64,000 bases of DNA from Archivesica marissinica. Taxonomy: Eukaryota > Mollusca > Bivalvia > Venerida > Vesicomyidae. Every line of letters begins with the position of its first letter. The stretch's first letter is position 1. Positions 2,491-63,255 of this stretch are shown here, one piece after another. The notes under the pieces were generated by a model that saw only the letters and a program-made list of their open reading frames with translations, had not been told where the DNA came from and searched no databases. The position numbers were made by a program, and so were the translations under genes. The stretch lies in assembly GCA_014843695.1 (NCBI GenBank), contig CM026386.1, positions 10,419,814-10,483,813 of the forward strand, written 5' to 3'.

Positions 2491-2691
2491 GAGGCGCAAT
2501 CACCTAGATCTAAATGTATTTGGACGGATGTATACATGTATACTTCAATGACTCGTTAAAGATACTTATCATTTTGCCCTGACCCCTGTGTCAACAAACT
2601 AGGCCGGAATTTTGAAATCAACACAAACGTACTAATGTGTAGGCAATAATGTTTTTGTAAAGTCCGAGACGCCACACATGTTTAGTTAATA

Positions 2692-8943: not shown

Positions 8944-9124
8944 ATGCACTGGACCTAGCCTAGGCTAAGGACGCGTACATCAGAAAGATTACAGACTCAA
9001 TGCCATTCAAAAACACAGTAAGACCATGATTAAAACTTCTTATCACGAAACCTTGACCCTGAACAAACTAAACCGTATTAAACTCCGACCTTAGGCGCAC
9101 ACCAGTACCTAATACTATTCAAAC

Positions 9125-9317
9125 ATGATTATTCGCGGTTACATGCTCGTTGTAACCTTGGTTACCGTTGTCATAGGAACATCCGGACTGATGTGCCAGC
9201 ACATGCAGACATCATGCCTAAAAGCCCACTGCCATCCGGTAGTGAACTGTACAGGAACAACTCGGAAGGGTGGCGGATTCTGCGGGTGTTGTTTAGCCTG
9301 CTTTACGTATGATATCG
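9125..9317 (+). CDS. IGFBP-like gene 2, exon 1
   Basis: The exon runs 193 nt from the ATG to donor 'ATCG|gtaaga'. It encodes the signal peptide and eight cysteines, ending GGGFCGCCLACFTYDI. The 20-bp array starts about 27 bp after the donor. Confidence 0.88.
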
Positions 9318-28185: not shown

Positions 28186-28226
28186 TCAATGCCTGTTCTT
28201 TCTGTTTCCCCAACCTCTTCTGTGAT
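28186..28226 (-). CDS. IGBP1: IGBP1 exon g, terminal
   Basis: The exon contributes 41 coding nt. It enters in phase 1 after acceptor 'tttgtattgtag' and encodes HRRGWGNRKNRH and a TGA stop, the conserved basic C-terminus. A TTAA-flanked MITE begins about 50 bp after the stop, so the 3' UTR runs into it. A TATAAA variant lies near 28006-28011, and no clear AATAAA was seen close by. Confidence 0.88.
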
Positions 28227-31200
28227 CTACAATACAAACAAATACACTCAAATAGATATCTTGGAAAACTAATCTATCAGGCAATAGAGTGGTGGAACCT
28301 AAGCTCGGCGTATTCCTAAGATCGGCAGCTTATTCCTAAGCTCGGCATATTCCTAAGCTCGGCATATTCCTAAGCTCGGCATATTCCTAAGCTCGGCGTA
28401 TTCCTAAGCTCGGCGTATTCCTAAGCTCGGCATATTCCTAAGCTCGGCGTATTCCTAAGCTCGGCATATTCCTAAGCTTGGCGTATTCCTAAGCTCGGCG
28501 TATTCCTATGATCAGCGTATTTGTCGATTTACATCCGTATTTAAAATATTTATATACCGGTAGTTCTAGGCTAATTTCACTGACAGAGCTGAAGGATGGT
28601 TCAATAGCATTCCGTTGCGTGTATCGGTAGCCTGATGCAACTGTCACGTGACTGGTCTAGGTGACGAATATAAAGAACCAAATCATTTGGAGAATATTTC
28701 CACCGAAACTGATACGGTGTATGAGCAATTCAGGTAGCTATCCGAATTTTAAAAATCTACACCTAACCCGAAAAATAGTTTCCTTTTCTGATAAAGACCA
28801 ATAAGTGATTTTATTCAATGATGTACTATATCAAAATAAGATATTCAATAAGTTCTGGTGGATAAATAAAAAATAAGAAGTACGCCGTGCATAGGTGCCC
28901 TGAAGTCTTGAGTTCCCTATATACCTAGTAAACGGGTGCCGACCCGACATCGTTGCGATAGCTGAATTGAGCAGCAAGGTCACGTGATGAAGCTAAAACT
29001 GTCAACAAGAGTTTTTTTAAAGTTGTTTTCACGACATAAGAAAATAATAACATACGGGCAAGTGTAATTAACATTTTATATTGGTCATTATTTGTGGGAT
29101 TAATGCTGCATAGATTCCACCGCTCTATGTCAATGTGAAATTTCTTAAACATACATTACATCTGAAGTATGTCGCCGGTCACCCATTCAGAGGGTCCATA
29201 TATATGTACTAGGAGGTTTGTTTTCACAAAAGCTTGAGAACTGTGATATATCCTTCTTAATTCTATATCACAAACGGTCGTTTAAATACCCCCCCCCCCA
29301 TTGGAATGACAGATTTCCAATCAAATTCATGGCCAGGACACCCGGGGCATTAGACATGCAATAATTTCTAAGTAATACTTGGGATATGATTTTGAACTGA
29401 TGCATGCATGAACCCCGCCCCCGTGCCACACCCAATGCAATATCATGATAATGATACCCACTTAGGCTGTCCGATTAGCTTCTCACCAATGCAACCCAAG
29501 TTCGATCCTCGGACCGGGAAGTATGCAAGATGGTACGGTGGTCGCCAGATCGGACAGGTGGGTTTTCTCCCAGTACTCCGGTTTCCTCCCACACGAATGA
29601 CCACATTTACGCTTTCATCCGCGCCAACGAGAGTGATTAATATAAGTTGTTAAAACTTGCTTCGCAATCGTTGTAAAAAAGTTTAAATGACACAAACTAT
29701 TGCATCATGCCCTCTATGGACTTACTGTCTCTGTATTCATCCCAGTTTCTAGCTTTCATCAGTTCCTCTGGATCTTCTCTCTCTATTCGTTCTTCCTTCT
29801 CTGCTTCTTCGCCCTCCTGCACTATTTTGTCTTTATCTGGATCCTTCGCCCAATCCTCCATACTGTGTCCTCCACTGAAAGTTTATGATAGACAGTTAGT
29901 CAAATTGCTGTTGTATAACCAGGTACAAAATTAGTGTTATATAACCTAATAAAGTCTTAGTGTTATATACCCTGATACAGAATTAGTGTTCTATAGCCTG
30001 GTAGAGAATTAGTGTTGTACAACCTGGTAGAGAATTAGTGTTCTATAACCTGGTAGATAATTAGTGTTCTATAACCTGGTAGAGAATTAGTGTTCTATAA
30101 CCTGGTACAGAATTAGTGTTCTATAACCTGGTACAGAATTAGTGTTCTATAACCTGGTAGAGAATTAGTGTCATGCAACCGATTACAGAATGGTATTATA
30201 TAATCTGATACAGAATTAGTGCTATATAACCTGGTACAGAATTAGTGTTCTATAAACTGGTACAGAATTAGTGTTCTACAACCTAGTACAGAATTAGTGT
30301 TATATAACCTGGTACAGAATTAGTGTTCTATAACCTGGTACAGAATTAGTGTTATATAACCTGGTACAGAATTAGTGTTCTATAACCTGGTACAGAATTA
30401 GTGTTATATAACCTGGTACAGAATTAGTGTTCTATAACCTGGTACAGAATTAGTGTTATATAACCTGGTACAGAATTAGTGTTCTATAACCTGGTACAGA
30501 ATTAGTGTTATATAACCTGGTACAGAATTAGTGTTCTATAACCTGGTACAGAATTAGTGTTATATAACCTGGTACAGAATTAGTGTTCTATAACCTGGTA
30601 CAGAATTAGTGTTATATAACCTGGTACAGAATTAGTGTTCTATAACCTGGTACAGAATTAGTGTTATATAACCTGGTACAGAATTAGTGTTCTATAACCT
30701 GGTACAGAATTAGTGTTATATAACCTGGTACAGAATTAGTGTTCTATAACCTGGTACAGAATTAGTGTTATATAACCTGGTACAGAATTAGTGTTCTATA
30801 ACCTGGTACAGAATTAGTGTTATATAACCTGGTACAGAATTAGTGTTCTATAACCTGGTACAGAATTAGTGTTATATAACCTGGTACAGAATTAGTGTTC
30901 TATAACCTGGTACAGAATTAGTGTTATATAACCTGGTACAGAATTAGTGTTCTATAACCTGGTACAGAATTAGTGTTATATAACCTGGTACAGAATTAGT
31001 GTTCTATAACCTGGTACAGAATTAGTGTTATATAACCTGGTACAGAATTAGTGTTCTATAACCTGGTACAGAATTAGTGTTATATAACCTGGTACAGAAT
31101 TAGTGTTCTATAACCTGGTACAGAATTAGTGTTATATAACCTGGTACAGAATTAGTGTACGCTATGCCTTCTAGTGTTTTACTGGTTTGATACAGTAACC

Positions 31201-34200
31201 GTATTTCTTCATAGAGTCTGACAATGTAGATTAGTACCACACATGGGTAGGGCCTCACACTGTAGAGTAGTTCCACACATGAGTAGGACCACACAATGTA
31301 GAGTAGTTCCACACATGGGTAGGGCCACACAATGTAGATTAGTTCCACACATGGGTAGGGCCACACAATGTAGATTAGTACCATACATTAGTAGGACCAC
31401 ACAATGTAGATTAGTTCCACAAATGAGTAGGGCCACACACTGTAGATTAAATCAATACATGAGAAGGGCCTCACAATGTAGATTAGTTCCACACATGAGT
31501 AGGACCACACAATGTAGAGTAGTTCCACACATGGGTAGGGCCACACAATGTAGATTAGTTCCAGACATGAGTAGGGCCTCACAATGTAGATTAGTTCTAC
31601 ACAAGAGTAGGGCCTCACAATGTAGATTAGTTCCACACATGAGAAGGGCCTCACACTGTAGAGTAGTTCCACACATGAGTAGGACCACACAATGTAGATT
31701 AGTTCTACACAAGAGTAGGGCCTCACAATGTAGAGTAGTTCCACACATGAGTAGGGCCTCACACTGTAGAGTAGTTCCATACATGAGTAGGACCACACAA
31801 TGTAGAGTAGTTCCACACATGAGTAGGGCCTCACAATGTAGAGTAGTTCCACACATGAGTAGGACCACACAATGTAGATTAGTACCATACATTAGTAGGA
31901 CCACACAATGTAGATTAGTACCATACATTAGTAGGACCACACAATGTAGATTAGTACCATACATTAGTAGGACCACACAATGTAGATTAGTACCATACAT
32001 TAGTAGGACCACACAATGTAGATTAGTACCATACATTAGTAGGACCACACAATGTAGATTAGTACCATACATTAGTAGGACCACACAATGTAGATTAGTA
32101 CCATACATTAGTAGGACCACACAATGTAGATTAGTACCATACATTAGTAGGACCACACAATGTAGATTAGTACCATACATTAGTAGGACCACACAATGTA
32201 GATTAGTACCACACATCAGTAGGACCACACAATGTAGATTAGTTCTACACAAGAGTAGGGCCTCACAATGTAGATTAGTTCCACACATGAGTAGGACCAC
32301 ACAATGTAGATTAGTTCCACACATGAGTAGGGCCTCACAATGTAGATTAGTTCTACACAAGAGTAGGGCCTCACAATGTAGATTAGGTCTACACATTAGT
32401 AGGACCACACAATGTGGATTAGTTCTACACAAGAGTAGGGCCTCACAATGTAGATTAGTTCCACACATGAGTAGGGCCTCACACTGTAGAGTAGTTCCAT
32501 ACATGAGTAGGACCACACAATGTAGAGTAGTTCCACACATGAGTAGGACCACACAATGTAGAGTAGTTCCACACATGAGTAGGACCACACAATGTAGATT
32601 AGTACCATACATTAGTAGGACCACACAATGTAGATTAGTACCATACATTAGTAGGACCACACAATGTAGATTAGTACCATACATTAGTAGGACCACACAA
32701 TGTAGATTAGTACCAACATAGTAGGACCACACAATGTAGATTAGTACCATACATTAGTAGGACCACACAATGTAGATTAGTACCATACATTAGTAGGACC
32801 ACACAATGTAGATTAGTACCATACATTAGTAGGACCACACAATGTAGATTAGTACCATACATTAGTAGGACCACACAATGTAGATTAGTACCATACATTA
32901 GTAGGACCACACAATGTAGATTAGTACCATACATTAGTAGGACCACACAATGTAGATTAGTACCACACATCAGTAGGACCACACAATGTAGATTAGTTCT
33001 ACACAAGAGTAGGGCCTCACAATGTAGATTAGTTCCACACATGAGTAGGACCACACAATGTAGATTAGTTCCACACATGAGTAGGGCCTCACAATGTAGA
33101 TTAGTTCTACACAAGAGTAGGGCCTCACAATGTAGATTAGGTCTACACATTAGTAGGACCACACAATGTGGATTAGTTCTACACAAGAGTAGGGCCTCAC
33201 AATGTAGATTAGTTCCACACATTAGTAGGGCCTCACAATGTAGAGTAGTTCCACACATGAGTAGGACCACACAATGTAGATTAGTACCATACATTAGTAG
33301 GACCACACAATGTAGATTAGTACCATACATTAGTAGGACCACACAATGTAGATTAGTTCTACACATTAGTAGGACCACACAATGTAGATTAGTACCATAC
33401 ATTAGTAGGACCACACAATGTAGATTAGTACCATACATTAGTAGGACCACACAATGTAGATTAGTACCATACATTAGTAGGACCACACAATGTAGATTAG
33501 TACCATACATGAGTAGGACCACACAATGTAGATTAGTTCCACACATGAGTAGGACAACAATGTAGACATACAAGTAGGACCACACAATGTAGATTAGTAC
33601 CATACATTAGTAGGACCACACAATGTAGATTAGTACCATACATTAGTAGGACCACACAATGTAGATTAGTACCATACATTAGTAGGACCACACAATGTAG
33701 ATTAGTACCATACATTAGTAGGACCACACAATGTAGATTAGTACCACACATCAGTAGGACCACACAATGTAGATTAGTTCTACACAAGAGTAGGGCCTCA
33801 CAATGTAGATTAGTTCCACACATGAGTAGGACCACACAATGTAGATTAGTTCCACACATGAGTAGGGCCTCACAATGTAGATTAGTTCTACACAAGAGTA
33901 GGGCCTCACAATGTAGATTAGTTCTACACATTAGTAGGACCACACAATGTGGATTAGTTCTACACAAGAGTAGGGCCTCACAATGTAGATTAGTTCCACA
34001 CATTAGTAGGGCCTCACAATGTAGATTAGTTCTACACAAGAGTAGGGCCTCACAATGTAGATTAGTTCTACACAAGAGTAGGGCCTCACAATGTAGATTA
34101 GTTCTACACAAGAGTAGGGCCTCACAATGTAGATTAGTTCTACACATTAGTAGGACCACACAATGTGGATTAGTTCCACACAAGAGTAGGGCCTCACAAT

Positions 34201-37200
34201 GTAGATTAGTTCCACACATGAGTAGGGCCTCACAATGTAGATTAGTTCCACACCTCAGTAGGACCACACAATGTAGATTAGTTCCACACAAGAGTAGGAC
34301 CACACAATGTAGAATAGTTCCACACAAGAGTAGGGCCTCACAATGTAGATTATTTCCACACAAGAGTAGGGCCTCACAATGTAGATTAGTTCCACACAAG
34401 AGTAGGGCCTCACAATGTAGATTAGTTCCACACAAGAGTAGGGCCTCACAATGTAGATTAGTTCCACACCTCAGTAGGACCACACAATGTAGATTAGTTC
34501 CACACATGAATAGGGCCTCACAATGTAGATTAGTTCCACACCTCAGTAGGACCACACAATGTAGATTAGTTCCACACATGAATAGGGCCTCACAATGTAG
34601 ATTAGTTCCACACAAGAGTAGGGCCTCACAATGTAGATTAGTTCCACACAAGAATAGGGCCTCACAATGTAGATTAGTTCCACACAAGAGTAGGGCCTCA
34701 CAGTGTAGATTAGTTCCACACATGAGTAGGGCCTCACAATGTAGATTAGTTCCACACAAGAGTAGGGCCTCACAGTGTAGATTATGTTATAGATTTATTA
34801 TAGGAGAAGACCTCTATAAGCTATAGCTTTCGGTTCTAATCCTTTTCATACATGTATGTAAATCATGGTTTGTATATATAATGGATATATCATTGTTTAA
34901 ACTAAATGTAGATTAGTTCCACACCTCAGTAGGACCACACAATGTAGATTAGTTCCACACCTCAGTAGGACCACACAATGTAGATTAGTTCTACACAAGA
35001 GTAGGGCCTCACCTATTGATATGCAGCGTCCCTTCTTCTACCTTCTGATCAAAGAACTCTTCTATGGTCAGGGTGGGTAGACCAGGGTATCCTAGACCGT
35101 ATACCTGTTTCTGAATGAGATCTTTCGTGATGATGAATGGACGAAGCGGCTGAAAATACAATATACATTTATACTTAAGATATGGGTCTCCGTGGCTGGC
35201 CACGAATGGTTCATGACGGTGACTTCAGGTCATTTGCTCCTCGCCGCTGTTGGTTCAAATCCCACACATGTGAGAAAGATACCCATCTGTATGTATGTAT
35301 AAAACATGGTGAGGAAACTGGATTAAACATGGTGAGGAAACTGGATAAAACATGGTGAGGAAACTGGATAAAACATGGTGAGGAAACTGGATAAAATGTG
35401 GTGAGGAAACTGGATAAAACATGGTGAGGAAACTGGATAAAACATGGTGAGGAAACTGGATAAAACATGGTGAGGAAACTGGATAAAACATGGTGAGGAA
35501 ACTGGATAAAACATGGTGAGGAAACTGGATAAAACATGGTGAGGAAACTGGATAAAACATGGTGAGGAAACTGGATAAAACATGGTGAGAAAACTGGATA
35601 AAACATGGTGAGGAAACTGGATAAAACATGATGAGGAAACTGGATAAAACATGATGAGGAAACTGGATAAAACATGTGAGGAAACTGGATAAAACATGGT
35701 GAGGAAACTGGATAAAACATGGTGAGGAAACTGGATAAAACATGGTGAGGAAACTGGATAAAACATGGTGAGGAAACTGGATAAAACATGGTGAGAAAAC
35801 TGGATAAAACATGGTGAGGAAACTGGATAAAACATGCTGAGGAAACTGGATAAAACATGCTGAGGAAACTGGATAAAACATGGTGAGGAAACTGGATAAA
35901 ACATGGTGAGGAAACTGGATAAAACGTGGTGAGGAAACTGGATAAAACATGGTGAGGAAACTGGATTAAACATGGTGGGGGGAAACTGGATAAAACATGG
36001 TGGGGGGAAACTGGATAAAACATGGTGAGGAAACTGGATAAAACATGGTCAGGAATCTGGATAAAACATGGTAAGGAAACTGGATAAAACATGATGAGGA
36101 AACTGGATAAAACATGATTAGGAAAACGATATCATGATACTAAACAATTGGTTTGATGTATTGACGACGGCTTAATCAATAATTTTTCATGTATCATTGT
36201 TGACCCTATTGGTGGTGTCATATAGTGGTAGCAGTCAGATTTGTAATTGTCATAATGGTGATGTGGGTACGAAACCTGGCGTAATCTGGTTTACTGGTGC
36301 TTTCAAGATCTGCTAATATTCGGTACTTAAAATAAAGCGTTTCCATCATGTAATTCTCGTGTTTTTATTTGTATTTAATGGTAGATAACTCACTTCAGGT
36401 TTATGGTCAACTTTCTTTGGTAACTGCTGTGATATATCTCCCTTCTTCTTTGCCATCAACTCCAGTATACCAACTTCTCCTGAAAATCACAGACCCGCAC
36501 ATGTATATAAACCCTAATGAAGGAAAATGGGCTGTCCGATTAGCGCAGGCACTTCTCACCAATGTAACCCGGGTTCGATCCTCGGACCGGGTAGTATGCG
36601 AGATGTACGGTTGTCGCCAGATCGGAGAGGTGGGTTTTCTCCGGGTACTCCAGTTTCCTCCCACACTAAAGACCACATTTATGCTTTCATCCGCGCCAAC
36701 GAGAGTGATCAATATAAGTTGTTAAAACTTGCTTCGCAATCGAATATCGCAATAAAATAAATAAAGTTTAAACTTAATGAAGGAAATAATAAAGGGAGGT
36801 AAAAAAACAGGCACAATTCTCAAACAAATTCTCAGATTTGAATGACTGGATATTAAAAGTTGTTAGTTGGTTTTTTTAGGTTAAGTTTACAGTCAAACCT
36901 GTCTTAAGCAGGTGGCTGTTTAATAGAGCTCAAATGTATAATAAAACAACAGATTGAGAATCTTGAAACTGGCTGCTTAATACAGGTTGGTTGCTTAATG
37001 GAGGTGACCACTAACACAGGTTTGACTGTATATAAATTAATTTAGCCTGATTGCGAAACAAGTTCTTACAATTTGTATTAATCCCCCTCGACACCTCGTT
37101 CCTGTTCGGGTTATACGCCTTCATCAGTACCATTTTGAGCTATATCGACAGCGGGCAGTTTACCTAACAACACATTTCCTGAGGCAGGCTCGTATTAAAA

Positions 37201-52200: not shown

Positions 52201-55200
52201 AGCCCCTCGCCACCAATGGCACTCCCCACCCCACTAGTGACACCCCCACTCCTCCACCACTGACAGCCCCCCCCCCAGCCACCAATGACACTCTCCACCC
52301 CACTAGTGACACCCCCACTCCTCCACCACTGACAGCCCCTTGCCACCAATGGCACTCCCCACCCCACTAGTGACACCCCCACTCATCCACCACTGACAGC
52401 CCCCCCTGCCACCAATGACACTCTCCACCCCACTAGTAACACCCCCATTCCTCCACCACTGACAGCCCCTCGCCACCAATGGCACTCCCCACCCCACTAG
52501 TGACACCCCCACTCCTCCACCACTGACAGCCCCCCCCCAGCCACCAATGACACTCTCCACCCCACTAGTGACACCCCCACTCCTCCACCACTGACAGCCC
52601 CTTGCCACCAATGGCACTCCCCACCCCACTAGTGACACCCCCACTCATCCACCACTGACAGCCCCCCCTGCCACCAATGACACTCTCCACCCACTAGTAA
52701 CACCCCCATTCCTCCACCACTGACAGCCCCTCGCCACCAATGGCACTCCCCACCCCACTAGTGACACCCCCACTCCTCCACCACTGACAGCCCCCCCCAG
52801 CCACCAATGACACTCTCCACCCCACTAGTGACACCCCCACTCCTCCACCACTGACAGCCCCTTGCCACCAATGGCACTCCCCACCCCACTAGTGACACCC
52901 CACTCCTCCACCACTGACAGCCCCTCGCCACCAATGACACTCTCCACCCCACTAGTGACACCCCCACTCCTCCACCACTGACAGCCCCTCGCCACCAATG
53001 GCACTCACCACCCCACTAGTGACACCCCCACTCATCCACCACTGACAGCCCGTCGCCACTCCCCACCCCACTAGTGACACCTCACTCCTCCACCACTGAC
53101 AGCCCCTCGCCATCAATGGCACTCCCCACCCCACTAGTGACACCCCCACTCCTCCACCACTGACAGCCCCTCGCCACCAATGACACTCTCCACCCACTAG
53201 TGACACCCCCACTCCTCCACCACTGACAGCCCCTCGCCACCAATGACACTCTCCACCCCACTAGTGACACCCCCACTCCTCCACCACTGACAGCCCCTCG
53301 CCACCAATGGCACTCCCCACCCCACTAGTGACACCCCCACTCCGCCACCACTGACAGCCCCCCCGCCACCAATGACACTCTCCACCCCACTAGTGACACA
53401 CCCCCACTCCTCCACCACTGACAGCCCACCCCCCTGCCACCAATGACACTCCCCACCCCACTAGTGACACCCCCACTCCTCCACCACTGACAGCCCACCC
53501 CCCTGCCACCAATGACACTCCCCACCCCACTAGTGACACCCCCACCCCTCCACCACTGACAGCCCACCCCCCTGCCATCAATGACACTCCCCACCCCACT
53601 AGTGACACCCCCACTCCTCCACCACTGACATACATTTAGAAGATTACTAAAACAAACTTACCAACTTCAGCAGTATCATCACAGAGAGGGCAACATAAAT
53701 CACTCTGTGTCTTCGTCTTCGCGCACGTCAATTGTGCACAATTCACTTTATTACAGAGAACCTTTGCTGCAGAAGAAAAAAAACAATAATAAGAAGATAT
53801 TTGTTTGATTCAGTGAATGATAGAATTATATTTCACCAAATGAACATTGAAAGTGTTATTATCCCTAGTGGAGCTAGCCAAGAGTGATAATAATAGCTTT
53901 CTATGTTAATTAAGGATACATCATCAGACCTGAAATTCAAAAGAACATACACTTGTTTATTTGTAGTAGGGATGGCAACGAATGTTCAAATATTTTTTCG
54001 AACACCCAAATATTTCGAGTGTTTTGTATATATATATTTATATATTTAAAACATGGATTTTCAATTTTTCAATTAAAATTTCAATAAATTGTAGTAAAAT
54101 CATATAACTATTTACCATCCTTGTGCCTGAAATTCCGAAAATGCGGCCCTATTTTGTAAAAATTCACAACATACGTGCTGAAAATTATTGCAATATTGGC
54201 TACATTGGTATGGGCACGTGAAAATAACAACTCGGACACGAAAGGGTACGGGCACGTGAAAATAACAACTCGGCCATGAAAGGGTACGGGCAAGTGTTAA
54301 TAACAACTCGGACACGAAAGGGTACGGGCAAGTGATAATAACAACTCGGACACGAAAGGGTACGGGCAAGTGAAAATAACAACTCGGACACGAAAGGGTA
54401 CGGGCACGTGATAATAACAACTCGGACATGAAAGGGTACGGGCACGTGAAAATAACAACTCGGACACGAAAGGGTACGGGCACGTGATAATAACAACTCG
54501 GACACGAAAGGGTACGGGCACGTGATAATAACAACTCGGACATGAAAGGGTACGGGCACGTGATAATAACAACTCGGACATGAAAGGGTACGGGCACGTG
54601 AAAATAACAACTCGGACACGAAAGGGTACGGGCACGTGATAATAACAACTCGGACATGAAAGGGTACGGGCACGTGATAATAACAACTCGGACACGAAAG
54701 GGTACGGGCACGTGATAATAACAACTCGGACATGAAAGGGTACCGGCACGTGAAAATAACAACTCGGACACGAAAGGGTACGGGCACGTGAAAATAACAA
54801 CTTGGACACGAAAGGGTACGGGCAAGTGATAATAACAACTCGGACACGAAAGGGTACGGGCACGTGAAAATAACAACTCGGACACGAAAGCCCCCCCGAT
54901 CAATTATAAAATAAATTACTTACAACATTTCTTGCCTTTGGTGGTCTTACACACAATCTCACCATTCTTACACTGACACTTGCGACATTTTCCGCCTTCC
55001 TTAAATTTTTGACCGTGATTGTAACTCTTGCCATTGTATTCACAGCTCTCTGTTCAAATTAAATAGTTTTGTTCAATAAGGTTGTATATAAGTAAATAGG
55101 CAGAAGTGCATCCGCGGTCCACTCGAATATAGTCCCAATAACTAATATAGTTCATTTTTCTTTTCGGTAAAAATGCATTTTCATGACAGGCAGTGTATAG

Positions 55201-58200: not shown

Positions 58201-61200
58201 TAAAGTGTGCATGTTGTGTGTGGGCGAGTTATTCACACTTAAAGTGTGCATGTTGTGTGTAGGTGAGTTATTCACACTTAAAGTGTGCATGTTGTATGTA
58301 GGCGAGTTATTCACACTTCAAGTGTGCATGTTGTGTGTGGGCGAGTTATTCACACTTAAAGTGTGCATGTTGTATGTAGGCGAGTTATTCACACTTCAAG
58401 TGTGCATGTTGTGCGTAGGCGAGTTATTCACACTTAAAGTGTGCATGTTGTATGTAGGCGAGTTATTAATACTTAAAAGTGCAAAGTTAGCAGTCACTAC
58501 AGTGGGTATGAATACCTGGTATGGAGCTCTGCAATGGAAGTATGTACACTGCTACAATATGTACCCATATAGAGCAGTGTTCATATATCTTAATGCCCCG
58601 ATTTCATGTAATGGCTCATAGCGAAATATAAAACCTCGCGAATAAAGCGACTTTTCCTGTACTTACAATGTGTAGCAAGCATTCAATGCATATTAAAAGG
58701 AGTGGATGACTAGAATCTGATTACTGTCTAATCTACTAGTCAACTCTCCAGCTATTATTGGTGGAGGAATACCGCAGGTGCAGTATTTCAGGAGCACGGA
58801 TGGACACCCGGGTACCACCACCGACCTTCCACAAGCCGGCTGTATAGCTTTTCTCACATGAAATAATTGAAACACACTCAGTGGGATTCGAACATACAGC
58901 GGTGATGGGTTTAATAACTTGAAGTCAAAGACTTTAACCAGTAGGTCAAAGAGGTCCCTAAGTTGGCTTCCAGCCCTCAGCAGTGGTAGGCAAGTCATTC
59001 AAGTAAAGAATGTTTATTTATTCTGAGAAGAAGTTTTAACAATGAGACTGATACATTGTATAAACCTCACCTTCAATGCTGTCCAACTCATCTATGCATA
59101 TATTCACCCATCGTATAACCTCACCTTCATTGCTGTCCAACTCATCTATGAATATATTCACCCATCGTATAAACCTCACCTTCATTGCTGTCCAACTCAT
59201 CTATGCATATATTCACCCATCTTATAAACCTCACCTTCAATGCTGTCCAACTCATCTATGCATATATTCACCCATCTTATAAACCTCACCTTCAATGCTG
59301 TCCAACTCATCTATGCATATATTCACCCATCTTATAAACCTCACCTTCAATGCTGTCCAACTCATCTATGCATATATTCACCCATCTTATAAACCTCACC
59401 TTCAATGCTGTCCAACTCATCTATGCATATATTCACCCATCTTATAAACCTCACCTTCAATGCTGTCCAACTCATCTATGCATATATTCACCCATCTTAT
59501 AAACCTCACCTTCAATGCTGTCCAACTCATCTATGCATATATTCACCCATCTTATAAACCTCACCTTCAATGCTGTCCAACTCATCTATGCATATATTCA
59601 CCCATCTTATAAACCTCACCTTCAATGCTGTCCAACTCATCTATGCATATATTCACCCATCTTCTCAACAATGTCAGGTAATAATCTCTCTGAAAGAAAA
59701 TCGCTTACTTTAAATTTTAATGGCAATACTCCCAGCCATAGGTTGACCTATGTCCAGGGTTCCCTCTGTCTGAATGTTTGTCTGCGCCACTTCTGTCGTC
59801 AATTGAAAAACACTGGAGCCAATTAAAAAAACTTGGAGCCAACTAAAAGCCATATAGTTCACAAATAATTATTTGAAGACATGTATTTGACAAAACATGT
59901 GCAAAAAAAAGAAAAGAAAAAAAGTTTGTGCCAAATATTTTCGCCAATTCACAAAATTTAGCGCCAATATTTGTTTTTTGTCGCAATTGGCGACCAACAA
60001 CGGGAACCGAATTTAAAAATTCTTTATGCTTTTCCAATGTATGATACGAGTGTTCTCAGTGACTCCATCTTACACAGTGAAAGATGGCATTGTCTCTGCC
60101 ACCAGTTGCATTTTGTATTCCTGCACGGTTAGATGTAATTTTCTATGTTAGCTATTTTCTAACTATCATGAACAGTTTATTATTTCTAAAGTAATATATT
60201 TTAATAAATTAGTTTTATCTGTAGTTTGAAATTTTGACAGCAAACAGACACTAACTTGAAAATTATACAGGAACTCTTTCTTATTACGGACGTGGTTGTG
60301 CAGTTGTGTCATGTAGTGCAATGAGGCTCCCGACAGGGCAATTAAAATGAATACAATTTGAAAACAAATATTATATTAGCCAAAGTCATTGGAAATCATA
60401 AAAGAAAAAGAAGATTTGTGTAGTTTAAGATATCACTCTATGAAATAAGATCCTATCTTACACCAATAGTTATACACAAATATCCTCTAAGTCGACATAT
60501 GGCTGAGAAACAAGCAAAAATAGTTGGGGGGAAATAAGTTTATTCTTTTTTATCTGATTGAACTTTATATCTGTTTTAATTAAAACAAAACCAAACAAAC
60601 AAAAATCAATTAGATTTTATCGAAACCGTAAAATTTGTGAGGGGTGTTCTTACGCAAATTATCGAGAGAAAAAAGAAAACTTGCACTAAATAAATAATAA
60701 TGTTCAGCATATTCGGCCCTATTTTTCCGTTTATACCTTTACGTCATCATCAACATGGTCTTGTTCCACAACCTCCTTTAAGTCATGCAGTTTCCTCTCT
60801 AGTTCCTTCTGTTCTTTGTATCTCTGTACCTTGTTATTCCTCTCGCCGGCCATTCCTCGCACATCTGCTGGGCTAAAAGAGGATTTCATTTATAATACAC
60901 ATAATGTATCTCCAGTCCATATTACTTTCAAATTACACACACATAATGTATCTCCAGTCCATATTTCTTTCAAATTACACACACATAATGTTTCCCCAGT
61001 CCATATTTCTTTCAAATTACACACACATAATGTTTCCCCAGTCCATATTTCTTTCAAATTACACACACATAATGTTTCCCCTGTCCATATTTCTTTCAAA
61101 TTACGTACACGTGAAATAAAATTGCTCTAAATTTCTTTAAAATTACACACACATGAAGTAATCTCGGTACAAATTTCTTTATTCTTTAAAATTACATTCA

Positions 61201-63255
61201 CGAGATGTATCCTTGGTCCAAATTTCTTATAATTATATAATAATGACATGAAACAAGCCACTCGCCGGCGGCGTTGGTTTATCAACACAATCATCTGAAG
61301 CATCATTCGCTTGCCGGTGGCATTGGTTTATCAGCACAATCATCTGAAGCATCATCCACTCGCCGGCGGCGTTGGTTTATCAGCACAATCATCTGAAGCA
61401 TCATCCACTCGCCGGCGGCGTTGGTTTATCAGCACAATCATCTGAAGCATCAGCCACTCGCCGGCAGAGTTGGTTTATCAGCACAATCATCTGAAGCATC
61501 ATCCACTCGCCGGTGGCGTTGGTTTATCAGCACAATCATCTGAAGCATCATCCATTCGCCGGCGGCGTTGGTTTATCAGCACAATCAACTGAAGCATCAT
61601 TCACTCGCCGACGGCGTTGGTTTATCAGCACAATCATCTGAAGCATCATCCACTCGCCGGCAGCGTTGGTTTATAAGCACAATCAACTGAAGCATCATCC
61701 ACTCGCCGGCGGCGTTGGTTTATCAGCACAATCATCTGAAGCATCATCCACTCGCCGGCAGCGTTGGTTTATAAGCACAATCAACTGAAGCATCATCCAC
61801 TCGCCGGCGGCGTTGGTTTATAAGCACAATCATCTGAAGCATCATCCACTCGACGGCGGCGTTGGTTTATAAGCACAATCAACTGAAGCATCACCCGCTT
61901 GCCGGCGGCGTTGGTTTATCAGCACAATGACATGAAGCATCACACGCTTGCCGGCGACATTGGTTTATCAGCACAATCAACTGAAGCATGATTGGTCCAC
62001 ATTTCCATCAGATAAGCCATGTTGTCACCCAAAATACAAAAAATACCCCTTGACCTATCGACGATTTCATCGTTGTTCTATATAGATATTTCATCGTTGT
62101 TCTATATAGATATTTCATCGTTGTTCTATATAGATATTTCATCGTTGTTCTATATAGATATTTCATCGTTGTTCTATATAGATATTTCATCGTTGTTCTA
62201 TATAGATATTTCATCGTTGTTCTATATAGATATTTCATCGTTGTTCTATATAGATATTTCATCGTTGTTCTATATAGATATTTCATCGTTGTTCTATATA
62301 GATATTTTACATGTCCTCCTTTGGTAATGAGACATGAATACAAACCGTATCGATACAGAGAAAGATATGAGTTGGGGCAACAAGTTCCATCAACTTTAGT
62401 TACAACCATTCGCTAAAATACGGATCAAAGATCATTTAACGTCGGAGGTGATACGTCGTAGGCATTTTGTAAATCCTAAAGCAACAATTTTGTTGTAAAT
62501 AGTATCATATATGGATTCATTGCTTCTTGGTTCACAGTCTACTGTAAACAAAATAATACCAAGGTGAACCGTTCATCCGATCAAATGTAAAAATTAATGT
62601 TTACACTTAGTAACTGACGATAGACTAAGTTTATTGATGGATGGCTCTACATGGCATTGTCAGTCTACTGTAAACAAAATAATACCAAGGTGAATCGTTC
62701 ATCCGATCAAATGTAAAAATTAATGTTTACACTTAGTAACTGACGATAGACTGACGATAGACTAAGTTGTTGTTTATTGATGGATGGCATAGTCAGTCTA
62801 CTGTAAACAAAATAATACCCAGATGAACGTTAAAAACAGTTCACCCAATCAAATGTTAGCATTTAGTCACTGACGATAGACTGACGATAGGCTAAGTTGT
62901 TGTTTATTGATGGATGGCATAGTCAGTCTACTGTAAACAAAATAATACCCAGATGAACGTTAAAAACAGTTCACCCAATCAAATGTTAGCATTTAGTCAC
63001 TGACGATAGACTGATGATATACTAAGTTGTTGTTTATTGATGGATGGCTCATGGCACTTAGGCTAGTCTGAAATAAACCCCAGAGTTCTGAACTGTGATA
63101 CAATATAAAGCTATCTCTCCGTACCTGGGCATCTGCGCTTTATGTGCGGGTCTGACCTCCAGTTGTGTCTCCTTGTTTTCATCGTGGGTCTCGCATACTT
63201 CATATTTAGTTACGTTGTAACTTCTGCACATTCTTAAATAATCACTATAAAAGCC
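28186..63255 (-). CDS. IGBP1: IGBP1 / alpha4 / TAP42 (C-terminal seven exons, partial)
   Basis: Seven exons on the minus strand join in phase: 63255-63125, 60872-60737, 59689-59620, 36479-36394, 35149-35013, 29874-29726 and 28226-28186. They give 750 nt (about 249 codons and a stop). Family hallmarks in order are a Cys/Tyr helix (DYLRMCRSYNVTKYEV), a basic helix (KVQRYKEQKELERKL), RDYYLTLLRRWVNICIDEL, the conserved PFIIT and GYPGLPTLT segment, an acidic stretch ending RNWDEYRD, and the basic tail HRRGWGNRKNRH. In known members this protein binds and stabilises the catalytic subunits of PP2A, PP4 and PP6 and acts in TOR signalling in the cytosol. The animal protein is about 340 residues, so roughly 90 N-terminal residues and the promoter lie upstream of the window. 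The intron between exons 59620 and 36479 (23 kb) contains a whole second gene. Every splice site is GT-AG. Recognition is by eye. Confidence 0.93.
28300..28515. repeat. 17-bp minisatellite, ~12 copies
   Basis: The unit is 'cctaagctcggcgtatt' or 'cctaagctcggcatatt'. It starts about 75 bp from the acceptor of the last IGBP1 exon. Confidence 0.92.
28516..29463. other. No recognised feature (IGBP1 intron)
   Basis: A/T-rich intronic DNA with a C homopolymer near 29290-29300. No repeat or coding signal was recognised. Confidence 0.5.
29464..29688 (+). mobile_element. SINE family B, copy 2
   Basis: The head 'ggctgtccgattagcttctc' is slightly shortened, and the body and tail are intact. It ends ~40 bp from IGBP1 exon f. 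Confidence 0.8.
29726..29874 (-). CDS. IGBP1: IGBP1 exon f
   Basis: The exon is 149 nt, phase 2 to phase 1, with acceptor 'aactttcag' and donor 'GACA|gtaagt'. It encodes an acidic, lysine-rich segment that ends EDPEELMKARNWDEYRD, corresponding to the conserved 'ArEWDdwkD' region of the family. The 26-bp array begins about 30 bp upstream of the acceptor. Confidence 0.9.
29906..31158. repeat. 26-bp minisatellite, ~48 copies, alternating as a 52-bp dimer
   Basis: The unit is 'cctggtacagaattagtg' plus ttatataa or ttctataa. From about 30295 to 31155 the two forms alternate strictly. The first ~14 units are diverged. Confidence 0.95.
31213..34785. repeat. 36-bp minisatellite, ~99 copies
   Basis: The unit contains 'aatgtagattagt' and 'gtaggaccacac' or 'gtagggcctcac'. 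36 is a multiple of three and the unit lacks stops in several frames, giving long open frames on both strands. Blocks of identical variants recur, for example 'accatacattagtaggacca' runs at 31870-32200, 32590-32960, 33270-33500 and 33590-33730. Confidence 0.96.
34786..34907. other. Non-repeat insert splitting the 36-bp array
   Basis: About 120 bp of A/T-rich sequence without the repeat. The array resumes at 34908. Confidence 0.6.
34908..35012. repeat. 36-bp minisatellite, last ~3 units, abutting the exon e donor
   Basis: The final unit ends 'gtagggcctcac', whose complement supplies the donor sequence GTGAGG of IGBP1 exon e with no intervening base. Confidence 0.9.
35013..35149 (-). CDS. IGBP1: IGBP1 exon e
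   Basis: The exon is 137 nt, phase 0 to phase 2, with acceptor 'attttcag' and donor 'AATAG|gtgagg'. It encodes PLRPFIITKDLIQKQVYGLG, then YPGLPTLTIEEFF, the most diagnostic stretch of IGBP1/TAP42. The 36-bp minisatellite starts exactly at the donor. Confidence 0.93.
35215..35290. other. Possible tRNA-like SINE fragment
   Basis: 'ggttcaaatccc' resembles a box B. No second copy was found in the window. Confidence 0.25.
35292..36122. repeat. 23-bp minisatellite, ~36 copies
   Basis: The unit is 'gtgaggaaactggataaaac' plus atg. Because 23 is not a multiple of three, all minus-strand frames stay open only because the unit has no stops. It lies between IGBP1 exons d and e. Confidence 0.95.
36394..36479 (-). 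CDS. IGBP1: IGBP1 exon d
   Basis: The exon is 86 nt, phase 1 to phase 0, with acceptor 'gattttcag' and donor 'CTGAA|gtgagt'. It encodes EVGILELMAKKKGDISQQLP then KKVDHKPE, the linker between the helical domain and the conserved PFIIT segment. It is separated from exon c by 23.1 kb. Confidence 0.87.
36527..36772 (+). mobile_element. SINE family B, copy 3
   Basis: The head 'ggctgtccgattagcgcagg', box B 'gggttcgatcc' and full tail are present, about 50 bp upstream of IGBP1 exon d in the intron. Confidence 0.8.
36888..37030. mobile_element. MITE, 'cagtcaaacctgt' ends, TA target duplication
   Basis: 'cagtcaaacctgtcttaa' at 36890 and 'aacacaggtttgactg' ending 37028 are inverted; both are flanked by TA. 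It is 139 bp with no coding content. Confidence 0.7.
37036..37195 (-). mobile_element. Fragments of SINE families A and E
   Basis: 37036-37100 is the tail of family A ('gattgcgaaacaagttctta'). 37101-37195 matches the family E body ('gggcagtttacctaacaaca'). Confidence 0.55.
37196..37425 (-). mobile_element. SINE family B, copy 4 (diverged)
   Basis: Inverted: 'gaggatcaaacccgggttgc' is the complement of box B, and the head ends 'cggacagcc'. Confidence 0.65.
37518..37626. mobile_element. Small TTAA MITE
   Basis: The ends 'ccctttccctcatag' and 'ctatgaaggaaaggg' are inverted with one mismatch, flanked by TTAA and TTAG. 109 bp. Confidence 0.55.
37695..38012. repeat. 34-bp minisatellite, ~9 copies
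   Basis: The unit begins 'acttagtataaatgatagaa'. It joins the next array at 'acaactta'. Confidence 0.93.
38005..38280. repeat. 13-14-bp minisatellite, ~19 copies
   Basis: The unit is 'aagcaagcaactt' with t/c/a variants. It continues directly from the 34-bp array. Confidence 0.92.
38313..38592 (-). mobile_element. SINE family C, copy 3
   Basis: Inverted, with the tail 'gtcgctaccggttgcccata' at the left and the tRNA-like head at the right. Confidence 0.78.
38818..38931 (-). repeat. Dispersed repeat, copy 2
   Basis: This is an inverted copy of the sequence at 1-112. It directly precedes a 5'-truncated SINE of family B at 38942. Confidence 0.6.
38942..39090 (+). mobile_element. SINE family B, copy 5 (head missing)
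   Basis: It starts in the body at 'cggacaggtgggttttctcc' and has the full tail. The tRNA-like head is lost. Confidence 0.72.
39091..39469. other. No recognised feature; possible VWC gene polyA region
   Basis: A/T-rich sequence. AATAAA on the minus strand at 39225-39220 could end the VWC transcript. Nothing else was recognised. Confidence 0.35.
39472..39765 (+). mobile_element. SINE family C, copy 4
   Basis: A full copy with head 'ggatctgtagtccagtggta', box B 'ggttcgatccc' and tail 'gtagcgatgataaataaacg'. Confidence 0.82.
39867..39995 (-). CDS. VWC gene exon 7, terminal (coding to 39892)
   Basis: The acceptor 'caacattcag' leads in phase 1 into DDRFPFAEALDCECEGGQMT, then CDAEYDSYCEYND and a TGA at 39894-39892. 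A consensus donor 'GAAG|gtgaga' lies 25 nt after the stop, at 39867/39866, and would also be phase 1. The transcript may therefore have a 3' UTR intron, or the exon may once have been internal. A possible AATAAA (minus strand) is at 39225-39220. Confidence 0.8.
39892..56154 (-). CDS. Secreted VWC-repeat protein, 270 aa, nested in an IGBP1 intron
   Basis: Coding exons are 56154-56073, 55049-54924, 53766-53662, 49332-49216, 47122-46874, 45296-45267 and 39995-39892, which sum to 813 nt (270 codons and TGA). All introns are phase 1. The protein starts with a signal peptide (MKATIMMVLLTICVVGILAL, then FQVTEAA). A full VWC domain follows, from SCEYNGKSYNHGQKF through CRKCQCKNGEIVC to a closing LCCPLC. 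After it come four half-VWC units of the form C..Y..GD.F...C..C.C..G...C....C: one in exon 49332, two in exon 47122, and one split between the 30-nt exon and the last exon. Asp/Glu-rich linkers suggest calcium binding. VWC proteins are extracellular and often bind BMPs or matrix; which of these applies here cannot be told. It lies wholly inside an IGBP1 intron on the same strand, and nearly every one of its own introns carries a minisatellite. Confidence 0.85.
40016..43826. repeat. 12-bp minisatellite, ~315 copies
   Basis: The unit is 'ggaacaacaggt' with g/t/a variants. 12 is a multiple of three and the unit lacks stops, so frames of over 1,000 codons exist on the minus strand and long ones on the plus strand. 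It fills 3.8 kb of the last VWC intron, ~21 bp from the acceptor. Two ~900-bp blocks near 40780-41660 and 41680-42560 are near-identical in order. Confidence 0.96.
43828..44125. other. No recognised feature (VWC intron)
   Basis: A/T-rich intron sequence between the 12-bp array and a SINE. Confidence 0.5.
44126..44388 (-). mobile_element. SINE family C, copy 5
   Basis: Inverted, with tail 'gtcgctaccggttgcccata' and the box B complement 'ggcatcgaacctgcgatccc'. Confidence 0.78.
44580..44813 (+). mobile_element. SINE family A, copy 6
   Basis: The head 'cgatagcgcagtggtagc', box B 'gagttcgagccc' and full body and tail are present. Confidence 0.82.
44983..45248. mobile_element. MITE ('cagggttcattc' ends), uninterrupted copy
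   Basis: 'cagggttcattcta' and 'tagaatgaaccctg' are inverted. It is 266 bp and shares its body with 24129-24626. It ends 19 bp from the micro-exon donor. Confidence 0.65.
45267..45296 (-). CDS. VWC gene exon 6 (30-nt micro-exon)
   Basis: The exon is only 30 nt, phase 1 to phase 1, between acceptor 'tttgcttgcag' and donor 'GTTG|gtgagt'. With the split codons it encodes GCQDDGPFDV and supplies the first cysteine of the last half-VWC unit, whose remaining cysteines are in the next exon. Exclusion would keep the frame but remove that cysteine. Confidence 0.75.
45399..45475 (-). repeat. Dispersed repeat shared with 23179-23262
   Basis: The reverse complement shares 'aggaattggacagaaagcta' and neighbouring sequence with 23179-23262. 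The class is unknown. Confidence 0.5.
45460..45706. repeat. 46-bp minisatellite, ~5 copies
   Basis: The unit contains 'attacttgcgattcatattt' and 'ctgttctagccagacag'. It is about 165 bp from the micro-exon acceptor. Confidence 0.85.
45825..45962 (-). mobile_element. SINE family F fragment, copy 2
   Basis: It shares 'accttcc' and 'tttgaacgtacag' order with the other family F copies. Diverged and partial. Confidence 0.4.
45963..46652. other. No recognised feature (VWC intron)
   Basis: A/T-rich intronic DNA. No coding or mobile-element signal was recognised. Confidence 0.45.
46653..46869. repeat. 74-bp tandem repeat, 3 copies, next to the exon 5 donor
   Basis: The unit begins 'aacagatggtgtacagaaat'. 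Copies start at 46653, 46727 and 46801; the last is 8 bp shorter and ends 4 bp from the donor of VWC exon 5. Confidence 0.92.
46874..47122 (-). CDS. VWC gene exon 5 (half-VWC units 2 and 3)
   Basis: The exon is 249 nt, phase 1 to phase 1, with acceptor 'gatcttgcag' and donor 'GATG|gttagt' (a weaker donor). It encodes an acidic linker, then CTCRNGYVKCLSTHC, then YCSGGIFFSDDNCRVCRCRN and FELCLSFPC. A 74-bp tandem repeat begins about 4 bp into the intron. Confidence 0.87.
47170..47396 (-). mobile_element. SINE family A, copy 7
   Basis: Inverted, with tail 'gattgcgaaacaagttctta' at the left and head complement 'actgcgctatcacgactt' at the right. Confidence 0.8.
47450..47680. repeat. 76-bp tandem repeat, ~3 copies
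   Basis: The unit contains 'ccgctacaatggaacacttc' and 'agtgcaagacattcaaagat'. Confidence 0.88.
47681..47843. repeat. 50-bp tandem repeat, ~3 copies
   Basis: The unit begins 'acaaattccccatttcccta' and follows directly on the 76-bp array. Confidence 0.88.
47846..48135 (+). mobile_element. SINE family C, copy 6
   Basis: A full copy with head 'ggatctgtagtccagtggta' and tail 'gcaaccggtagcgacgacaa'. Confidence 0.82.
48205..48335. repeat. 22-bp minisatellite, ~5 copies
   Basis: The unit is 'acaactcccaagtaacaatg' plus ga. Confidence 0.9.
48447..48600 (-). mobile_element. SINE family A, copy 8 (head truncated)
   Basis: Tail and body are present. It stops at 'gtaacggctc', before the tRNA-like head. 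Confidence 0.75.
48913..49025. other. Long hairpin (45-bp arms, 23-nt loop)
   Basis: 48913-48957 and 48981-49025 are inverted copies with 7 mismatches in 45 (outer 'gttgcagataaggaa'). It sits in the VWC intron between exons 4 and 5 and could be a tiny palindromic MITE or a miRNA-like hairpin. Confidence 0.6.
49216..49332 (-). CDS. VWC gene exon 4 (half-VWC unit 1); acceptor lies inside a minisatellite unit
   Basis: The exon is 117 nt, phase 1 to phase 1, with donor 'TGCC|gtatgt'. It encodes SCEFAATTYPDGDRF, then CNRCICVAGIITCSDFDC, which aligns without gaps to exon 2. That alignment selects acceptor 'gttatacag' at 49333 over an internal 'tttgcag' 22 nt downstream. The chosen acceptor and the first ~8 exon nt are the sequence repeated in the adjoining 39-bp array. 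Confidence 0.85.
49325..51325. repeat. 39-bp minisatellite, ~50 copies, containing a splice acceptor
   Basis: The plus-strand unit contains 'gatcctgtataacacgcaat' and 'gagatatacataactaca'. On the minus strand every unit has 'gttatacag|gatcatgt', the acceptor and first exon bases of VWC exon 4. Some units lack about 8 bp ('acgtaatgatcctg'). Confidence 0.95.
51345..51490 (-). mobile_element. SINE A-like variant
   Basis: The tail 'agctcgattgagaagcaagt' matches family A. The body differs, and 'gagattcgaactcacaacc' is a box B complement. Confidence 0.5.
51650..53632. repeat. ~64-bp C-rich minisatellite, ~31 copies
   Basis: The unit contains 'ctcctccaccactgacagcc' and 'ccccaccccactagtgacac'. Length varies with C-run size. 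The minus (transcribed) strand is G-rich with several GGGG runs per unit. It ends ~30 bp from the VWC exon 3 donor. Confidence 0.94.
53662..53766 (-). CDS. VWC gene exon 3 (second half of VWC1)
   Basis: The exon is 105 nt, phase 1 to phase 1, with acceptor 'cttctgcag' and donor 'GTTG|gtaagt'. It encodes KVLCNKVNCAQLTC, then LCCPLCDDTAEV. The CCxxC closing motif is typical of the VWC C-terminal subdomain. The ~64-bp array begins about 30 bp into the next intron. Confidence 0.88.
53767..54204. other. No recognised feature (VWC intron)
   Basis: A/T-rich sequence upstream of exon 3, with a polypyrimidine tract directly before the acceptor. Confidence 0.5.
54205..54891. repeat. 38-bp minisatellite, 18 copies, with CACGTG motifs
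   Basis: The unit contains 'aataacaactcggacacgaa' and 'agggtacgggcacgtg'. Most units carry the CACGTG E-box, the rest CAAGTG. It ends ~33 bp from the VWC exon 2 donor. Confidence 0.95.
54924..55049 (-). CDS. VWC gene exon 2 (first half of VWC1)
   Basis: The exon is 126 nt, phase 1 to phase 1, with acceptor 'ttgaacag' and donor 'TGTT|gtaagt'. It encodes SCEYNGKSYNHGQKF, then CRKCQCKNGEIVCKTTKGKK, a textbook VWC subdomain 1. A 38-bp array ends about 33 bp beyond the donor. Confidence 0.9.
55050..55528. other. No recognised feature (VWC intron 1)
   Basis: A/T-rich. Open frames here lack any family resemblance. Confidence 0.45.
55529..55769. mobile_element. piggyBac-like MITE, TTAA target duplication
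   Basis: TTAA at 55529-55532 and 55766-55769 flank inverted ends 'ccctttcaacacc' and 'ggtgttgaaaagg'. It contains the palindrome 'acggctcgtcacgagccggc'. Confidence 0.7.
55803..55997 (-). mobile_element. SINE family B, copy 6
   Basis: Inverted: tail 'acaacttatattaatcattc' at the left, head complement 'cgctaatcggacagcc' at the right. Confidence 0.75.
56073..56182 (-). CDS. VWC gene exon 1 (signal peptide)
   Basis: A probable acceptor 'attaatacag' precedes 28 nt of 5' UTR and then 82 coding nt ending at donor 'GCAA|gtaagt' in phase 1. The ATG at 56154 opens a hydrophobic 27-residue leader ending VTEAA. An upstream ATG 22 nt earlier opens a different, overlapping frame without a signal peptide, so I chose the second ATG. 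Confidence 0.85.
56183..56550. other. No recognised feature (VWC 5' UTR intron)
   Basis: A/T-rich. 'ggcagtagccagagtagcc' near 56450 resembles the end of a hAT-type MITE, but no partner end was found. Confidence 0.4.
56551..56803 (+). mobile_element. SINE family B, copy 7 (best preserved)
   Basis: The head 'ggctgtccgattagcgcagt', box A 'gcgcagtggttagcgtg', box B 'gggttcgatcc', full body and 'cgcttctcaccaatgc' arm are intact. Confidence 0.85.
56946..57020 (-). promoter_or_regulatory. Probable promoter and 5' UTR exon of the VWC gene
   Basis: On the minus strand a TATTTAT box (about 57018-57012) lies ~65 bp upstream of a consensus-like donor 'AGAAG|gtagga' at 56946/56945. The first coding exon has an acceptor upstream of its ATG, so a non-coding first exon is expected somewhere here. 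Placement is inference from spacing only. A 39-bp minisatellite starts ~170 bp further upstream. Confidence 0.4.
57190..58475. repeat. 39-bp minisatellite, ~33 copies
   Basis: The unit contains 'gtgtgcatgttgtgtgtagg' and 'cgagttattcacacttaaa'. It lies upstream of the VWC promoter region, inside the IGBP1 intron. Long open frames through it are a repeat artefact. Confidence 0.95.
58752..58963 (-). mobile_element. SINE family F, copy 3
   Basis: Minus strand: head 'gggacctctttgacctactg', box B complement 'gggattcgaacatac', body with 'gtgcagtatttcagg'. Confidence 0.65.
59055..59665. repeat. 55-bp minisatellite, 11 copies, containing exon end and splice donor
   Basis: Each unit is the last 43 nt of IGBP1 exon c (RWVNICIDELDSIE) plus 12 nt of intron starting gtgagg. 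Donors recur every 55 bp from about 59065 to 59619. Only the outermost copy is joined to the upstream part of the exon and its acceptor. Confidence 0.95.
59620..59689 (-). CDS. IGBP1: IGBP1 exon c (3' part tandemly amplified downstream)
   Basis: The exon is 70 nt, phase 0 to phase 1, with acceptor 'tttctttcag' and donor 'GAAG|gtgagg'. It encodes RDYYLTLLRRWVNICIDEL then DSIE, the best conserved helix of the family. The last 43 nt plus the first 12 nt of the intron form a 55-bp unit present about 11 times (59055-59665), so the real donor is only the first of a row of near-identical donors. Confidence 0.9.
59755..60012. mobile_element. Possible hAT-type MITE
   Basis: 'cagggttccc' at 59755 and 'gggaacc' near 60008 are inverted, with 'gcgcca'/'tggcga' motifs inside. 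No target duplication was confirmed. Confidence 0.4.
60013..60736. other. No recognised feature (IGBP1 intron)
   Basis: A/T-rich intronic sequence without recognised repeat or coding signal. Confidence 0.5.
60737..60872 (-). CDS. IGBP1: IGBP1 exon b
   Basis: The exon is 136 nt, entering in phase 2 and leaving in phase 0, with acceptor 'cctcttttag' and donor 'AAAG|gtataa'. It encodes PADVRGMAGERNNKVQRYKE followed by a charged helix ending DHVDDDVK. A 40-bp minisatellite begins about 26 bp upstream of the acceptor. Confidence 0.9.
60898..61100. repeat. 40-bp minisatellite, ~5 copies
   Basis: The unit contains 'acacacataatgtttcccca' and 'gtccatatttctttcaaatt'. It starts ~26 bp upstream of the IGBP1 exon b acceptor. 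Confidence 0.92.
61258..61990. repeat. 49-bp minisatellite, ~15 copies
   Basis: The unit contains 'cactcgccggcggcgttggt' and 'ttatcagcacaatcatctga'. It lies in the IGBP1 intron between exons a and b. Confidence 0.95.
62066..62306. repeat. 24-bp minisatellite, 10 copies, nearly perfect
   Basis: The unit is 'tttcatcgttgttctatata' plus gata, with almost no variation between copies, suggesting recent expansion. Confidence 0.95.
62533..63050. repeat. ~115-135-bp tandem repeat, 4 copies
   Basis: Each copy has 'agtctactgtaaacaaaata' and 'tgacgatagact'. The last two are almost identical, and some carry a duplicated 'gactgacgata'. Confidence 0.85.
63125..63255 (-). CDS. IGBP1: IGBP1 exon a
   Basis: The exon is 131 nt, from acceptor 'cttgcag' to donor 'CAG|gtacgg', starting in phase 0 and ending in phase 2. 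It encodes GFYSDYLRMCRSYNVTKYEV and continues to AHKAQMP, matching the middle of the helical domain of IGBP1. Earlier exons are outside the window. Confidence 0.88.

Follow-up and report, generated by a model that had tools for sequence, protein, structure and literature searches.

The window, which is the whole 64,000-bp stretch of DNA that was analysed (C1:10419814-10483813 of a 1.54-Gb genome), carries four reconstructed genes: IGBP1/TAP42, a gene with VWC domains nested in one of its introns, and two IGFBP-like genes (Table 1). Seven exons of IGBP1 lie in the window, and two further exons were recognised upstream in the flanking locus L009. One missing exon was located by a splice-site scan after a motif search gave nothing, with a general splice-site scoring matrix. 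The spliced protein, whose start is missing, has 315 amino acids and scores 248 bits against PF04177. Its three best named hits are the proteins of Mya arenaria (64% identity), Dreissena polymorpha (62%), and Mactra antiquata (59%), which puts the source of the genome among the heterodont bivalves or their near relatives. All eight joins fall inside the Mya and Dreissena IGBP1 alignments, with small gaps adjoining two of them, and junctions 29874, 35012, 59619, and 60872 are supported by this homology. A reverse-transcriptase domain (PF00078, E 1.3e-30) is present on the minus strand of L009 among the IGBP1 exons.

The five junctions of the VWC gene considered here (39995, 46873, 49332, 53661, and 54923) are supported by open frames, phase-1 joins, canonical sites, and the cysteine pattern. 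The Pfam VWC profile matched two of the five exons at 27.3 and 18.4 bits, both under the cut-off of 27.6, and the 5' end of the gene was not found in the models. In the IGFBP-like genes the donors of exon 1 lie near 2884 and 9317, and the starts given for their second exons are approximate. The two copies are 59% identical in exon 1, and junction 9318 is supported by this identity together with its frame and site. The Pfam IGFBP profile matched the first copy only, at 18.1 bits against a cut-off of 28. A search of solved structures with a single exon as the query gave no match. The gene models contain 28 junctions, 25 in the window and three in L009. Other features of the window include a tRNA-Thr-like match at 39476-39548, which may belong to a dispersed repeat derived from a tRNA, and long open frames at 5638-7827 (+) that resemble a transposon-type coding region.

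Table 1. Genes, exons, and tandem arrays of the window, with distances from junction to TRF edge
Feature	Position	Strand	Basis or location
Two tandem IGFBP/SIBD-like two-exon genes	2686-4488 and 9113-23659	+	open frames, pairwise identity
20-bp unit, 628 copies	9347-21850	+	29 bp from donor 9318, IGFBP-like gene
IGBP1/TAP42 gene (PF04177)	28186-64000	-	profile match, splice-site scan, protein alignment
IGBP1 exons in window	63255-63125, 60872-60737, 59689-59620, 36479-36394, 35149-35013, 29874-29726, 28226-28186 (stop)	-	
IGBP1/TAP42 exon RDYYLTLLRRWVNICIDELDSIE/G	59620-59689	-	open frame, bivalve protein alignment
26-bp unit, 48 copies	29909-31158	-	ends 34 bp from IGBP1 acceptor 29874
36-bp unit of 35012 array, 99 copies	31221-34784	-	deeper in intron
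36-bp units at IGBP1 donor 35012	34905-35012	-	16 bp; first copy degenerate, starts at donor GT
VWC-domain gene	39893-55049	-	same strand, nested in 23-kb IGBP1 intron 59619-36480
VWC gene exons	55049-54924, 53766-53662, 49332-49216, 47122-46874, 39995-39893 (stop)	-	
VWC gene exon GSCEFAATTYPDGDRF...	49216-49332	-	open frame, fitting phase-1 joins
12-bp unit, 319 copies	40020-43820	-	25 bp from last VWC acceptor 39995
74-bp unit, 2.8 copies	46653-46873	-	13 bp; homology back to about +5 of VWC donor 46873
Acceptor mirage, 52 copies of 39-bp unit	49320-51328	-	overlaps VWC exon acceptor 49332
64-bp-based array	51646-53630	-	31 bp from VWC donor 53661
38-bp unit, 18 copies	54207-54890	-	34 bp from VWC donor 54923
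Donor mirage, 11 copies of 55-bp unit	59059-59663	-	TRF, IGBP1 exon/intron border; overlaps 59619 by 44 bp
42-bp-based array	60897-61228	-	24 bp from IGBP1 acceptor 60872

Tandem arrays occupy much of the window and many of them lie beside splice junctions. After rows from Tandem Repeats Finder (TRF) were merged (period at least 10, score at least 100), 24 arrays cover 55% of the bases. The original prediction had named ten junctions, out of about 29, with a minisatellite close by. All ten fit open-frame models, and TRF recovers every array named. An array lies on the junction or within 34 bp of it at 11 of the 28 junctions. Nine of these arrays, including one in the flank that lies 30 bp from an IGBP1 donor in L009, do not cross the border but end within the intron, 13-34 bp from the junction. 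In two of the nine, degenerate homology extends as far as the donor or close to it. A degenerate unit fills the first 36 bp of the intron at 35012 and keeps the register of the downstream array, and the homology of gap to unit exceeds that of 500 out of 500 shuffles. Among 14 near arrays from the window and elsewhere that were examined for hidden homology between junction and array edge, it was found in three (35012, 46873, and one at the dynein locus L038) and was absent in 11.

Two arrays of the window span an exon border. At 59619 the 55-bp unit joins the last 43 bp of the IGBP1 exon to 12 intronic bp with the donor GTGAGG, and the copies are 98% identical. The outermost of the eleven donors gives the protein join ELDSIE/GEVGILE, which is collinear with Mya and Dreissena IGBP1, so that the outermost site predicts an intact protein; the next donor in the array adds a stop. 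At 49332 each 39-bp unit contains TTATACAG/GATCATGT, the acceptor, or a sequence that differs little from it. Three arrays had been thought to carry a splice site in every unit. This holds for 59619, where GT is intact in 11 of 11 copies, and for 49332, where AG is intact in 52 of 52, but at 35012 the intact units, although in register, read GTGTGG instead of GTGAGG.

The pattern recurs in unlinked genes. Dynein heavy-chain loci were found by a family search and then chosen by exon spacing, blind to arrays; from 98 listed matches 13 loci (L029-L041) were taken. Tubulin loci came from an initial search, and L007 was left out since its second exon is off the locus. Introns were called by match continuity, frame, and splice scores. 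Two dynein exon pairs (L033 and L034) were passed over because of large gaps in the query, the L040 acceptor was shifted by eye from 2234 to 2288 for reading frame, and a 450-bp array in L032 that ends at its acceptor was counted as near. In dynein an array lies on or less than 35 bp from 10 of 80 junctions. Six of the 80 (three donors and three acceptors) are inside an array whose unit contains the splice site, and another four lie 0-34 bp from an array. The tubulins add two near arrays among 17 junctions, for a total of 12 of 97. Two tubulin paralogs have unrelated arrays near the same acceptor, at distances of 18 and 10 bp, and a third paralog has none. The tubulin acceptors in L001 and L003 were noticed before they were included in the tally, and dynein is therefore also given alone. 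The density of arrays was estimated from sixteen 10-kb regions at round-number positions, in which 48 arrays cover 26% of bases; loci L010-L012 were used for array density only.

Including those at 59619 and 49332, nine borders are spanned by tandem repeats. L033 has two successive donors copied, one in five copies of an 85-bp unit that includes 75 bp of exon and the other in about 16 copies of a 45-bp unit, and at some bases its spare copies agree with one another but not with the exon copy. L036 has about 35 copies of a 50-bp donor unit. The acceptor units of L037, L041, and L040 are present in nine, four, and two copies. In the kinesin locus L042 (C6:90884300-90885250) a 113-bp unit made of the acceptor and 86 bp of exon occurs six times, and the last copy opens the conserved exon. 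This locus was picked for its repeated-looking matches and stands outside all statistics. AG has changed to AT in three of its six acceptors, and the shared change looks as if one dead copy had spread.

Most of the copied splice sites are intact. The dinucleotide is kept in 11/11, 5/5, 17/17, and 35/36 copies of the donor arrays and in 9/9, 4/4, 3/6, 52/52, and 2/2 copies of the acceptor arrays; in eight of the nine site-bearing arrays this amounts to 135 of 136 copies, exon copies included. Long neutral drift would decay such sites, suggesting that the arrays are young, homogenised, or kept. Of five arrays tested, three would gain a stop through use of a neighbouring site, and two would gain an insert that stays open and in frame. 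The latter two have the VWC unit of 39 bp and the dynein unit of 45 bp (L033, donor near 5144), whose lengths are divisible by three and whose exon frame is open, and a neighbouring site would therefore insert 13 or 15 in-frame residues. The exonic part of the unit, by TRF edge, is 75/85, 44/55, 26/45, 14/50, 18/60, and 24/64 bp, and this wide spread is what random breakpoints would give.

The units are unrelated to one another, as originally predicted. Comparison of 141 of the 145 arrays (period at least 15) gave 12 similar pairs, of which 11 are within one locus. The spread of a single repeat family is ruled out by this result, and because the units share no sequence, each array arose in place.

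The nearness of arrays to junctions exceeds chance in the window. Of 22 array ends, 9 lie within 35 bp of a junction, while 2.3 are expected when the same arrays are randomised within the same introns (P about 5e-5), and random placement purely in intron interiors is rejected at this distance; at 20 bp, however, there are 3 ends versus 1.4 expected (P 0.14), which is not significant. If units are allowed across borders, the expectation at 35 bp rises to 3.5 (P 0.001). The edge rate found 100-1500 bp into introns predicts 0.6 near edges, or 0.8-1.2 with dispersed repeats masked, versus 9 seen. With masking and a border-spanning model, the 11 of 28 junctions compare with 1.8-2.9 expected (P 1e-4 to 4e-3). 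Both the 35-bp cut-off and the window were chosen after the pattern was noticed, and the window excess is thus strong but post hoc.

The excess is smaller in the other genes. For the first dynein batch, placement purely in intron interiors is rejected at 10-50 bp (at 35 bp, 7/56 versus 3.35 expected, P 0.025), but when border-spanning is allowed the expectation becomes 5.3 (P 0.24). For dynein alone, with border-spanning allowed and the expectation drawn from the far rate, the 10 observed compare with 4.5 (P 0.034, about twofold), and near edges only give P 0.10. Dispersed repeats were masked as sequence matching other fetched loci, in at least 1, 2, 3, or 5 of them. The dynein expectations then become 7.7, 6.9, 6.5, and 6.1 versus 10 seen (P 0.30, 0.22, 0.18, and 0.13). 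Dynein and tubulin together give 12 versus about 4.6 unmasked (P 0.004-0.01) and versus 6.2-8.2 masked (P 0.05-0.18), with 8.8 (P 0.24) in the first mask variant. About half of the far sequence is lost under the loosest mask, which may also cover paralogous introns. A preference for borders, if there is one, could reach about twofold.

Arrays of this kind are already known. Contrary to the original prediction, which knew of no described process, tandem repeats that span exon borders have been named 'mirages' in the lancelet Adh gene, and they are also reported in Adh3, the globins BflGb6 and BflGb9, TnC, and PGBD5 (PMC3087553, PMC3902484). As described there, normal splicing is retained and the arrays are proposed as a route to new introns. 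In both animals units of about 10-160 bp copy the border and splice site, and donor and acceptor sides are both affected. In contrast to the handful of lancelet genes in those reports, about one sampled junction in sixteen in the clam (6/97) has its site in an array, in addition to two in the window and one in kinesin, with up to 52 copies. In the Rogers model, as cited in PMC3087553, introns are gained when exon sequence that contains a proto-splice site is duplicated in tandem, and Drosophila cases of such gain are described in PMC2891723. The clam arrays resemble this model in that extra splice sites near the exon come from local tandem duplication, but in the clam it is existing introns that lengthen. 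Human internal tandem repeats in segmental duplications have units averaging 30 bp, lie at exon-intron borders in some cases, and can alter splicing, according to PMC2812944. The human repeats create introns or make them vary, and do so in young paralogs, whereas the clam arrays are in conserved genes and leave the outermost site intact. Like ordinary intronic minisatellites, the clam arrays have unrelated units, many copies, and no dispersal; unlike them, a subset repeats the end of the exon together with its splice site in each unit. Among the matches listed in open-licence literature there was no bivalve or mollusc report of border-spanning arrays, and the additions made here are the occurrence in a bivalve, the frequency, and the copy numbers.

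The arrays are probably mirages, that is, local tandem duplications that straddled or adjoined a border by chance and then expanded into minisatellites. The density of 48 arrays over 26% of the sampled regions points to rampant tandem duplication, and the genome would generate and expand such duplications at a very high rate, presumably by slippage or template switching and with neutral effect. Duplications inside exons would be removed by selection, and those inside introns would persist. Duplications that cross a border would persist too, with the extra copies all turning into intron. These would be tolerated, and the protein spared, because an intact exon is still delimited by the outermost site, which is the first of the donors or the last of the acceptors; it is this site that would be used in the RNA. 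Dispersed repeats may lengthen the middle of introns and stay out of the bases beside splice sites, so that older, array-bearing DNA would become relatively commoner near borders. Density and tolerance together could place an array on or within 35 bp of roughly one junction in eight. The array density, the 10 of 80 dynein junctions with six sites inside units, the near-chance first dynein batch, the masked dynein values (P 0.13-0.30), the varied exonic share, the conserved IGBP1 protein given by the outermost donor, and the kinesin exon opened by the last acceptor favour this explanation. Against it are the 11 of 28 junctions in the window, the unmasked results for dynein (P 0.034) and for dynein with tubulin (P 0.004-0.01), the different arrays gained at the same acceptor in two tubulin paralogs, and the 135 of 136 intact dinucleotides. 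The nine window-set edges that lie 13-34 bp inside the intron are not predicted by it.

It is less likely, and on balance doubtful, that exon borders are true hot spots at which splicing, transcription (through R-loops or polymerase pausing), or chromatin promotes tandem duplication. The near edges themselves argue for such a process, with 9 in 831 bp versus 8 in 10,704 bp in the window set (P 7e-7) and 6 in 3,030 bp versus 26 in 45,905 bp in dynein and tubulin (P 0.013), as do the two independent arrays at one tubulin acceptor. However, the tubulin hits were noticed ahead of the tally, the overlaps are equal on donors and acceptors (3 and 3), and dynein alone gives P 0.10 for near arrays only, 0.034 with overlaps, and 0.13-0.30 when masked. 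A form of this idea specific to the bivalve lineage, in which splicing or transcription would repeatedly seed and expand arrays of spare splice sites at several per cent of junctions and the spliceosome would reliably pick the outermost of dozens of identical sites, is likewise rather unlikely. The claim that arrays are seeded at junctions is supported only in part. They recur in unlinked genes (10/80 in dynein, 12/97 with tubulins) and exceed chance in the window, but the dynein excess fades once dispersed repeats are masked. Special nucleation is uncertain because arrays are already dense in introns and duplications that span a border are tolerated.

Retention of the spare splice sites by selection, as redundancy that guards splicing or as a source of useful isoforms, is improbable. 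The intact dinucleotides in eight arrays and the 13 or 15 in-frame residues offered by the VWC and dynein units would fit this explanation. The high copy identity of the IGBP1 donor array fits youth or homogenisation equally well, though, and the stops added by a neighbouring site in three of five arrays and the three dead kinesin acceptors speak against it. Very improbable is an artefact of assembly or chance, with mis-assembled repeats or mis-called junctions beside arrays, since, although the arrays are long, hard to assemble, and seen in a single assembly, are so dense that some junctions must fall near one, and adjoin five VWC junctions that rest on frames, sites, and cysteine pattern, the IGBP1 joins align with bivalve proteins (which leads to rejection of mis-calling for that gene, 8/8), the pattern appears in many loci with unrelated units, and the lancelet arrays are supported by re-sequencing (PGBD5) and RT-PCR (globin), as reported in PMC3087553 and PMC3902484.

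The clam genome provides a natural test of splice-site choice where the spliceosome faces 2-52 near-identical sites. It can also be used to test the lengthening of introns by tandem duplication and whether mutation at exon edges differs from that in the rest of the intron. The introns of the two tandem IGFBP/SIBD-like genes are very unequal in length, at about 1.4 and 14 kb. The 12.5-kb array of 20-bp units beside donor 9318 shows a higher-order duplication, marked by three pairs of 31-bp variant units (11157/14560, 11728/15131, and 12119/15522) with 3403 bp between the two members of every pair.
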